From Methanosphaerula palustris E1-9c (GTDB lineage Archaea > Halobacteriota > Methanomicrobia > Methanomicrobiales > Methanospirillaceae), in NCBI RefSeq assembly GCF_000021965.1, contig NC_011832.1, positions 1,302,001 through 1,366,000 on the forward strand: a stretch of DNA of 64,000 bases. The letters run 5' to 3'. This document shows, in pieces, positions 49,665 through 55,915 of this stretch (within the stretch, counting starts at the first letter, position 1; each line of letters starts with the position of its first letter). The position numbers were made by a program, and so were the translations under genes. Under the pieces are notes generated by a model. It did no database searches, was not told the DNA's origin, and saw nothing but the letters and a program-made list of their open reading frames with translations.

Positions 49665-49936
49665 TAGTATAATTCCGTCTTTTTTTGCCGGTAACCTGTG
49701 GTGAGGGATACCAGTATTTCAGATTAGTGCCGGCAGGGTTTTATCCAGTTGTACTTCTCCCGGGGTCAGATTGTAATGACTGAAATGTGTTTTTTGGTTT
49801 TTAGTGTAAATCCGGTCAGTATTGGGGGTAGATTTGGTAAAGTGCGGTAGTACCGGACTCGTTTGAAAATATTTCCAGGACTTCGGCCATCTCATATTTT
49901 AATATGCATCATTATCCTAACAGTACCAGACGATAC
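49665..49936 (+). promoter_or_regulatory. Terminator of the moa operon and promoter of the PKD-DAC gene
   Basis: A T-run at 49680-49686 follows moaE. A TATA-like CATATTTTAATATG at 49893-49906 lies 31-44 bases before the ATG at 49937, arguing that this ATG and not the one at 49904 (inside the TATA element) is the start. Nothing else is recognised in the roughly 200-base gap. Confidence 0.45.
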
Positions 49937-51886
49937 ATGGGGAACTGTTTGTATGACCCAGGGAGACTGAGACCTCACTATGCACAGGTTATCATCTGTG
50001 CAGTGCTCTGTCTTCTCCTCTCAATGGCAATCCCTTCTCTGGCATCAGCTGCTGACCCGCTGCTGCCCAATGAGACAACTCCAACGGTGGTACCGGTAAC
50101 GCCCACCACAGTCCCGACGGTGAGCACAACGACTACCACCGCCACACCGTCGCCGACCCTGACCACAATTCCAACGACAACAATAACAACAACTATTCCG
50201 ACATCGACCATTCCCACCACGACCCAGATCCCGACGGTGACGACGACAGTCTCAACACCGATGACGACGGTCTCAACACCGACAACCACGATCCCAACGC
50301 TCACCACGATAACGACCACACCGATCACGACCCTGACGACGATCTGGACTCAATCGACCGCCACGACCACATCCACCTCACATACCCCGCCGGCCCTCCT
50401 GATCAATCCGCCGAGCATCGACCAGTTGAAGGTTACTGTCGACGGGACCTCGACGCCTGGGGAGTATGGTCAGACGATCAGCAGGATCTCATGGAACTGG
50501 GGTGATGGTAGGATTGAGGACCAGCCCTTCCCTGCCTCGCACACCTATGCACGGGCAGGTAAATATGTGGTTGCGGTCACCAGTTACCAGAGTGACGGAA
50601 CCTACAACACCCGCACCCTTGATGTGGAGTTGACGACCCCAACAATCACCACGACAGCAGTCACGACGACCATGCCTCCGCCGGGCGCGCCCCGTCTGAT
50701 CCTGAACGCCCCCGAGATCAACAACAGCACGGTCATGGTGAATGGTATTCCGCAGGCGGGAAGCCCGTCGATGTCCATCCAGAAGTTAATGGTAGATTGG
50801 GGAGACCAGAAGAAGGACGAATATGTGGCTTTCCCATTTCAGCATACCTACGATAGTCCCGGGCAGTACCAGATCTGGATCACTGGTGTCCAGAGCGATG
50901 GACAGTCAACCCTCCAGAACCTGACCGTTGAGATCAGTTCCCAGGTTCCCAGCACCCTCCCAACCTCCGGTTCACCCACGGCCGTCCCCTTCTGGGCCAA
51001 GCCCGGAATCATCCCCGGGTTGCTGGTCGTGCTGATCGCAGCAATAGTTGGTGGTGGGGCGATGCTCTGGCGGCGGCGCGAGCTGGGGTCCGTGGTGATC
51101 CCGACCTCAGAACCACTCGAAGAGGCCGTGGCCGCTTATACCCGGGCCCGTGAGCATGGTGATCTGGTGCAGGCCCGGAAGAGCGCCCTTGAATGTGCCC
51201 AGTTGCTGGTGATCCTTGCTGAGGCAGAACCTCAGTACAGCTCGGCGTACCTTGAGAAGGCGGACGACTGGAAGGCGATCGCTCGTTCACTGACCCAGCA
51301 TCTGGAGGACGAGCCAGAACAGGCAGACCCAGGCCCGACGCTCTCCCTCGAAAAGAACGGAGCATGGGGGGACGCCGAGAAGGGGGAGGATGTAACCCTC
51401 GATGAGATGTCGACCGAGGTTCTTGAGGGAACCGACATCGATCCGGTGGTCTTTGAAGCAGTGCTGACGATTGCCCTTGAGATCGCTCGGGAAGGCAGAG
51501 AAGGGCAGTCTGTCGGGACCGCGTTCATCGTTGGTGATGCCGAACAGGTGATGAACGCCTCGACCCAGTTCATCCTGAACCCGTTCAAGGGACATCTGGT
51601 CGAGGAACGGTTGATCACGGATCCGAATCTGCATGAGAACATCAAGGAGTTCTCACTCCTCGATGGTGCTTTTGTCATCGCGAGCAACGGTGTGGTCGAG
51701 GCGGCAGGTCGGTACATCACGGTTGACACCAGTGGTGTCTCCCTGCCGGCAGGTCTCGGTTCGCGCCATGCTTCGGCAGCAGGGATCACCAGGGTCACCA
51801 ACTCGGTTGGTGTTGTTGTCTCACAGAGCGGAGGATTGATCAAGGTGATCAAGGGTGGAAAGATCCTCTGGACGATCACGCCATAA
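49937..51886 (+). CDS. Membrane receptor-like protein: signal, Thr-rich stalk, two PKD domains, TM, cytoplasmic diadenylate cyclase (DAC) domain
   Basis: 649 residues. Signal peptide with cleavage near PSLASA/AD (about residue 38). A Thr/Pro-rich stalk to about 150, two PKD domains (SWNWGDGRIEDQPF and LMVDWGDQKKDEYV), a transmembrane helix (IIPGLLVVLIAAIVGG, about 354-377) with WRRRE on the cytoplasmic side, a helical linker (about 385-470), and a C-terminal DisA_N/DAC domain (about 490-649). DAC hallmarks: FILNPFKGH, DGA at 576 (LLDGAFVIAS), and the RHR-like GLGSRHASAAGIT with Arg-His at 610-611, where the third Arg is Ala as in archaeal DacZ sequences I recall. It would make c-di-AMP from two ATP in the cytoplasm in response to surface cues. 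DacZ enzymes are usually soluble, so this fusion is unusual. Neighbours are unrelated. Confidence 0.85.
   Translation: MGNCLYDPGRLRPHYAQVIICAVLCLLLSMAIPSLASAADPLLPNETTPTVVPVTPTTVPTVSTTTTTATPSPTLTTIPTTTITTTIPTSTIPTTTQIPTVTTTVSTPMTTVSTPTTTIPTLTTITTTPITTLTTIWTQSTATTTSTSHTPPALLINPPSIDQLKVTVDGTSTPGEYGQTISRISWNWGDGRIEDQPFPASHTYARAGKYVVAVTSYQSDGTYNTRTLDVELTTPTITTTAVTTTMPPPGAPRLILNAPEINNSTVMVNGIPQAGSPSMSIQKLMVDWGDQKKDEYVAFPFQHTYDSPGQYQIWITGVQSDGQSTLQNLTVEISSQVPSTLPTSGSPTAVPFWAKPGIIPGLLVVLIAAIVGGGAMLWRRRELGSVVIPTSEPLEEAVAAYTRAREHGDLVQARKSALECAQLLVILAEAEPQYSSAYLEKADDWKAIARSLTQHLEDEPEQADPGPTLSLEKNGAWGDAEKGEDVTLDEMSTEVLEGTDIDPVVFEAVLTIALEIAREGREGQSVGTAFIVGDAEQVMNASTQFILNPFKGHLVEERLITDPNLHENIKEFSLLDGAFVIASNGVVEAAGRYITVDTSGVSLPAGLGSRHASAAGITRVTNSVGVVVSQSGGLIKVIKGGKILWTITP
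50086..50385 (+). repeat. Threonine-codon low-complexity tract
   Basis: ACC/ACG/ACA-rich imperfect repeats encode the stalk of the PKD-DAC protein. The local duplication GACGACGGTCTCAACACCGA occurs near-identically twice around 50235-50282. Such tracts vary in length by slippage. It is not a CRISPR array, since it lies inside an open frame and lacks regular spacers. Confidence 0.6.
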
Positions 51887-54950: not shown

Positions 54951-55412
54951 TTATCGGCCATAGACGACCGATGTCGTGCCGAACTGGATCACATGCCCCT
55001 GCATCGCTTTGACCAGGTCTTCCTGTTCTGAACCGGGCGCCAGTTCAAGTCTGGTGTCGAGCCCATAGACCTTGATCTCATACCGGTGTGCCTGCCCGTT
55101 CGGTGGACAGGGTCCGCTGTATCCGATCTCACCTTTTGCGTTCTTTCCCTGCACAGCACTGATTGGGAACGAGACGGTCAGATCCTTTGGGATGTTCTCT
55201 GGGACGATCGAGACCACGTCCATATTCCAGATCAGCCAGTGGGGAAATGTGCCGCCACCCGGGGCATCGGCGTCAGTCATCATGAGGGCAAGGGACGCAA
55301 TGCCGTTCTCTTCGATTCCATCGACCTCAAGCGCTGGTGAGACATTGTTACCATCGCAGGTATACTGGGGTGGCAGGTTCTTTACAGAGATTCGCACCGT
55401 CAGGGGTTTCAT
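54951..55412 (-). CDS. YbhB/YbcL-type PEBP family protein (copy 1)
   Basis: 153 residues from the ATG at 55412 (frame opens at 55421). PEBP ligand-pocket motifs: PPQYTCDGNNVSPALEV, MTDADAPGGGTFPHWLIWNM, and YSGPCPPNGQAHRYEIKVYGLD. The prokaryotic members are small phosphate or lipid headgroup binders with unclear roles; Raf-kinase inhibitor naming derives from eukaryotic relatives. A second copy lies directly upstream on the same strand at 55460, so this is a tandem duplication. Confidence 0.88.
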   Translation of the reverse strand: MKPLTVRISVKNLPPQYTCDGNNVSPALEVDGIEENGIASLALMMTDADAPGGGTFPHWLIWNMDVVSIVPENIPKDLTVSFPISAVQGKNAKGEIGYSGPCPPNGQAHRYEIKVYGLDTRLELAPGSEQEDLVKAMQGHVIQFGTTSVVYGR

Positions 55413-55459
55413 AGGTATCAAAATCGGATTGATCCTATAAATAATCTTTGAATCAGAGA

Positions 55460-55915
55460 TCAGCGCCTGTACATCGCGATGGTGTTCCCGAACTGAATCA
55501 CATGCCCCTGCATTGCAGCGTTCAACTCGTCTTTGGTGAACCCGCCGGGAAGGTCCAGCTGGCTGTCAAGCCCATAGACCTTGAAGGTGATCTGATGGGT
55601 CTCCCCCTCCTTTGGGCAGGGTCCCCGATACCCGATCGTTCCAAAGTCGTTCATCCCCTGAATGGCGGAGAAGGGAAGATCGATCACCTTTTCTTTGGGA
55701 ATTCTGGGTGGGACCACGACAACCGGCGGAATGTTGCAGATCAGCCAGGTGGTGAAGGTACAGCCCGGTTCAAACGGATTGATGGCCACGACGGCGAGTG
55801 ACTTCACCGCTGGATCGAGGGGACCGTAGACGATTCGCGGTGAAACATTCTCTCCATAACAGGTGAAGATCTCGGGCAACTCACCATAGTCCAGACGCAC
55901 GGTTAGATCTTTCAT
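55460..55915 (-). CDS. YbhB/YbcL-type PEBP family protein (copy 2)
   Basis: 151 residues starting MKDLTVRLDYGELPEIFTCYG. It has the same layout as its neighbour (ENVSPRIVYG, AINPFEPGCTFTTWLICNIP, YRGPCPKEGETHQITFKVYG). Copy 2 replaces the DADAP metal/ligand-pocket segment by NPFEPG, so the pocket differs and the two copies have diverged in specificity. The gap between the two genes is 47 bases with an AT-rich promoter-like stretch, so each may have its own promoter. Confidence 0.87.
   Translation of the reverse strand: MKDLTVRLDYGELPEIFTCYGENVSPRIVYGPLDPAVKSLAVVAINPFEPGCTFTTWLICNIPPVVVVPPRIPKEKVIDLPFSAIQGMNDFGTIGYRGPCPKEGETHQITFKVYGLDSQLDLPGGFTKDELNAAMQGHVIQFGNTIAMYRR

Follow-up and report, generated by a model that had tools for sequence, protein, structure and literature searches.

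The window, a 64,000-nucleotide stretch of the Methanosphaerula palustris E1-9c genome (NC_011832.1, positions 1,302,001 to 1,366,000), contains a single open frame at 49904–51886 on the forward strand, with zero internal stops, whose product combines a predicted surface region with a C-terminal diadenylate cyclase (DAC) domain. Of its two possible in-frame ATG start codons, at 49904 and 49937, the latter was preferred because the N-termini of relatives (MGN/MGR) align at this position, which bears out the start chosen in a preliminary description of the locus. The gene thus spans 49937–51886 and encodes 649 amino acids followed by a stop. A predicted Sec signal peptide occupies residues 1–38 (49937–50050), as suggested by the sequence with its ASA/A cleavage-like site, by hydropathy and by a modelled helix at residues 13–34. 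The order from outside to inside is then a Thr-rich tail, PKD1, PKD2, a transmembrane (TM) helix, a helical bundle and the DAC domain. The tail (residues 39–149, 50051–50383) consists of 49% Thr and 14% Pro and is predicted to be disordered, also in the structure model. PKD domain 1 (residues 150–233, 50384–50635) carries the motifs WNWGD and QSDG, and PKD domain 2 (residues 250–334, 50684–50938) VDWGD and QSDG; both were assigned by Pfam, AlphaFold2 modelling and Foldseek. The one TM helix (residues 359–383, 51011–51085; model, hydropathy and sequence) ends in arginines, and by the positive-inside rule the C-terminus is therefore predicted to be cytoplasmic. This side would hold a three-helix bundle with an MIT-like fold (residues 392–458, 51110–51310; model and alignment) and the DAC (DisA_N) catalytic core (residues 517–642, 51485–51862; Pfam, NCBIfam and Foldseek). 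Within the core lie the DGA motif (D576–A578, 51662–51670), invariant among PKD-type DACs, and a GSRHA motif (residues 608–612, 51758–51772), identified from the sequence and its relatives as the counterpart of RHR. The preliminary description had recognized the signal peptide, the two PKD domains, the single TM helix, the C-terminal DAC domain with its DGA motif, and the topology, all of which stand. It had, however, taken the Thr-rich part for a stalk, whereas this is an N-terminal, membrane-distal tail and does not lie between the membrane and the PKD domains; it had overlooked the bundle between the TM helix and the DAC domain; and its second motif, although present as GSRHA, is not a canonical RHR.

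The Pfam DAC profile (PF02457) matched with E = 4.3e-19 and 68.7 bits against a cut-off of 27, covering profile positions 3–118 of 119, so that the C-terminal part has the significant DisA_N/DAC match on which the preliminary description had staked its reading. PKD_4 matched over two stretches (4.2e-12, 46.4 bits against a cut-off of 27), and PKD at 1.3e-8. The AlphaFold2 model was based on a 30-row alignment of proteins from the window and the related loci, and its mean pLDDT of 75.7 and pTM of 0.39 make the placement of domains relative to one another untrustworthy. Individually, PKD1 (about 150–233) and PKD2 (about 250–334) were modelled at a pLDDT of ~95 and the DAC domain mostly at 85–97, with the TM helix at 359–383. 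In Foldseek, the PKD fold matched solved PKD domains, with a TMt of 0.89 to Vibrio PKD1 domains, and the DAC fold matched DisA/CdaA structures.

The bundle, modelled alone with nine relatives, reached a pLDDT of 88.6, and most of its top Foldseek matches were MIT domains, including an archaeal Vps4-like MIT (TM ~0.7, rmsd 1.6, but E 0.2–0.5). No Pfam match, MIT included, was obtained for residues 392–458 even at E 10, and on the strength of the model the bundle is MIT-like in fold only. It is missing from several relatives (L041–L043, L049). At L046, L053 and other Methanoperedens loci, soluble DACs were observed that carry an MIT-like domain at the N-terminus (Pfam MIT 4e-6 to 8e-6, just below the curated cut-off). 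Homology of the bundle to this N-terminus was unsupported, with a probability of 4.7% in a profile comparison; both resemble MIT.

For the distribution of the architecture, a search profile (A2) built from 13 PKD-type proteins was run over 232 Methanomicrobiales genomes. The 108 Methanoregulaceae genomes covered represent 17 genera; the PKD part and DAC occur together in 28 of them (29 genomes counting the cut-off copy L140). The combination was found neither in the 124 other Methanomicrobiales genomes nor, outside the family, in a 393-genome draw from the phylum, which contributed about 310 further genomes. PKD, TM helix and DAC lie in one open frame in 25 genomes, including M. palustris, a few of these frames starting at a contig edge; among the remaining cases two run off contigs and one (L128) diverges close to the C-terminus of DAC. 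Every PKD-DAC genome with a completeness of at least 85% carries another DAC, and this constant company fits an accessory, regulated cyclase. In a tree of 106 DAC domains, obtained by a short search and labelled by simple motif rules corrected by eye, the PKD type makes up one side of a branch (SH-aLRT 97), and the five architecture labels need just 6 changes; from these sequences, the PKD-type proteins appear to form one clade with a single origin. Across six pairs of relatives, dN/dS was 0.06–0.15 for DAC and 0.16–0.65 for the PKD part (NG86; rough values, as some dS exceed 1). By this estimate the DAC domain is under strong purifying selection and is the most constrained part of the protein. 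The W-x-W-G-D and QSDG positions of the PKD domains are near-invariant in the alignment of relatives, which together with the constrained dN/dS argues that the PKD part is not a free spacer.

The archaeal DAC classes DacV to DacZ, defined by their attached domains, go back to Corrigan & Gründling 2013, as cited by Braun et al. 2019 (PMC6741144), where M. palustris B8GHP5 is listed as the sole representative of DacV. B8GHP5 is almost surely the 649-aa protein described here; the match rests on organism and elimination, since M. palustris holds only this DAC and a DacZ. The architecture, which the preliminary description had believed to be undescribed, has thus almost surely had a class name since 2013, with the M. 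palustris protein as the only member in that list. No experiment on class DacV was found in the literature searched. What is added here appears to be the distribution across the family, the single origin, the RHx pattern and two parts of the protein, the helical bundle and the Thr-rich tail at its distal end.

When compared to NCBIfam models, the protein was most similar to DacZ, in the DAC half only; its DAC belongs to the DacZ-like, archaeal kind. The DAC aligns to positions 121–267 of the DacZ model (2.2e-36) and has the RHx pattern in common with haloarchaeal-type relatives, but its 125.6 bits fall below the full-length cut-off of 430 (NF041371). In contrast to DacZ/CdaZ of H. volcanii and M. 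jannaschii, the protein lacks the DacZ_A (PK_C-like) domain and is predicted to be membrane-anchored with an ectodomain; in the tree, its DAC lies outside the branch holding the M. palustris DacZ. CdaA/DacA of Firmicutes is likewise a membrane-linked cytoplasmic DAC of the same fold, but its TM domain is N-terminal and it lacks an ectodomain, and the score of our protein against its model (TIGR00159) was 31.5 bits with a cut-off of 188.8. Two further architectures of the Methanomicrobiales, TPR-TM-DAC and REC-PAS-PAS-DAC, combine a related DAC with a separate input part; the input domains differ from PKD, and the REC-PAS kind is without a membrane anchor. We would guess that these two correspond to classes DacW and DacX.

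The M. palustris genome (2,922,917 bases, one contig) contains exactly two DAC genes according to the DAC search. The other one (L002) encodes a 272-aa soluble protein with DacZ_A (3e-24) and DAC domains, and is the one soluble DacZ whose presence the preliminary description had left to be checked. The genome has 144 PKD_4 matches, and PKD is so common here that it points to no specific ligand. Very large PKD-repeat proteins are clustered at 1865000–1912000 of the same contig (open frames of 1753, 2555 and 3296 aa). An operon partner was considered among moeB-moaD-moaE upstream and acs downstream and rejected, as neither is conserved around orthologs; the ortholog neighbourhoods held no conserved neighbour gene pointing to a partner. 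A bacterial-type promoter scan stayed at chance level, the bacterial model not being meaningful for an archaeon. Elsewhere in the window, two adjoining tandem genes of the PEBP family (PF01161) lie at 54951–55915 on the reverse strand.

A protein that crosses the membrane once and displays an arm outside the cell lends itself naturally to controlling how catalytic domains pair, much as receptor cyclases do. Judging by its sequence, the protein is most likely a membrane-anchored cyclase that is active and in which the envelope-facing PKD part would influence the pairing of the DAC domains. The signal peptide would export the Thr-rich tail and both PKD domains into the S-layer space, the TM helix would span the membrane, and the MIT-like bundle would connect it to the DAC domain, which would convert two ATP into c-di-AMP. 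As DAC domains work only as head-to-head dimers (PMC8573169), we propose that association or strain of the PKD domains with envelope or extracellular partners may tune the output by altering how two DAC domains meet. That this single-pass cyclase supplies c-di-AMP in response to the envelope, in addition to the soluble DacZ of the same cell, seems to us slightly better than an even proposition. The other input parts borne by related DACs (TPR, REC-PAS, TrkH) count for such regulated input; against the proposal count that neither a coiled coil nor a HAMP-like transmitter could be recognized in the protein and that several relatives lack the helical bundle. c-di-AMP is implicated in osmoregulation (PMC8646023), and an effect on K+ or osmolytes may lie downstream. 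A more specific version is unlikely: here the two PKD domains would couple the cyclase mechanically to the S-layer, and DAC pairing, and with it the output of c-di-AMP, would be set directly by turgor or by strain in the envelope. A PKD domain from an S-layer protein of Methanosarcina mazei has high mechanical strength, which increases under force (PMC2862302); this permits a strain-sensing reading and does not establish it. If true, the protein would be a one-protein envelope-tension sensor upstream of archaeal K+ homeostasis.

The preliminary description's proposal that surface or envelope contact would control c-di-AMP has a serious, though less likely, rival: the PKD/Thr part may tether DAC to the envelope without sensing and thereby place c-di-AMP synthesis close to K+ channels or other targets in the membrane. 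In this genome PKD domains occur as generic surface modules, sister DACs share the TM-DAC plan with unrelated ectodomains (TPR, or that of L184), and a fusion of DAC to a TrkH transporter fits membrane placement just as well. For anchoring, however, the TM helix alone would be enough, and the PKD part has persisted throughout the clade, both of its domains retaining conserved residues. An artefact, by frameshift or assembly, that fused a surface-protein gene to a DAC gene had been named beforehand as a danger to the whole reading; its probability is now negligible, as 24 other genomes have the same order in one frame and the M. palustris genome is finished (PMC4645200). Nothing was found in its favour, the orthologs rule it out, and the fusion is genuine.

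Another rival reading is that the DAC domain is catalytically dead and only binds ATP or c-di-AMP, making the protein a receptor or regulator instead of a synthase. While D576-G577-A578 is present, the RHR position reads R610-H611-A612, without the third Arg, and an RHR to AAA mutation kills Bacillus CdaS; the second DAC of the genome and the relative L128, which departs from the DAC C-terminus, would also suit a dead domain. We nevertheless regard this as very unlikely. DGA and GSRH are kept in 27 of 27 PKD-type sequences, in what is the most constrained part of the protein, and almost none of the archaeal relatives examined has the third Arg, the main DACs of related genomes included: the motif reads RHS or RHA in PKD-type relatives, mostly RHV, RHA or RHS in the TPR and REC-PAS types, and RHM in haloarchaeal-type DacZ genes drawn from the phylum (haloarchaeal identity inferred). 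DacZ of H. volcanii is active, Mn2+-dependent and makes c-di-AMP (PMC6741144). The retained DGA, the RHx pattern common to archaeal relatives, the low dN/dS of DAC and the active H. volcanii enzyme thus argue for a working synthase.

We know of no signals established as setting archaeal c-di-AMP, and a cyclase that itself carries an arm facing the envelope offers a concrete starting point for finding them. The Methanomicrobiales join one cyclase to different inputs (PKD, TPR, response-regulator/PAS, K+ transporter), so that it becomes testable which conditions c-di-AMP signals in archaea. The TPR type has a signal peptide, a Thr/Pro-rich region, an apparently exported TPR part, a TM helix and DAC (L003, L004, L008, L011, L012, L022–L024, L030, L031; TPR checked by Pfam on L011 and L030). 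REC-PAS-PAS-DAC, a soluble response-regulator-like cyclase, is very common in Methanoregulaceae (L005, L009, L014, L066 and about 30 others). A further ectodomain type is represented by L184 (genome G118), with a signal peptide, an ectodomain without Pfam match, a Pro/Thr linker, a TM helix and DAC. In three Methanomicrobiales genomes of one family and two genera (G116, G108 and G115; f2), a TrkH K+ transporter and a C-terminal DAC form one in-frame fusion: L045:1277-3475 (TrkH 3e-45, DAC 8.5e-18), L065:2438-4498 (TrkH 1.3e-47, DAC 4.6e-16) and L072:2426-4393, which is truncated where its contig ends and was assessed only by eye. This fusion joins a K+ channel subunit to the synthase of a K+-controlling messenger and is more surprising than PKD-DAC; a limited literature search found no paper on it. 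TrkA_C proteins are candidate downstream c-di-AMP parts, and a DHH-DHHA1 protein of M. palustris with a TrkA_N-like N-terminus (L164, near 173688 of the contig; N-terminus read by eye) is a candidate c-di-AMP phosphodiesterase.
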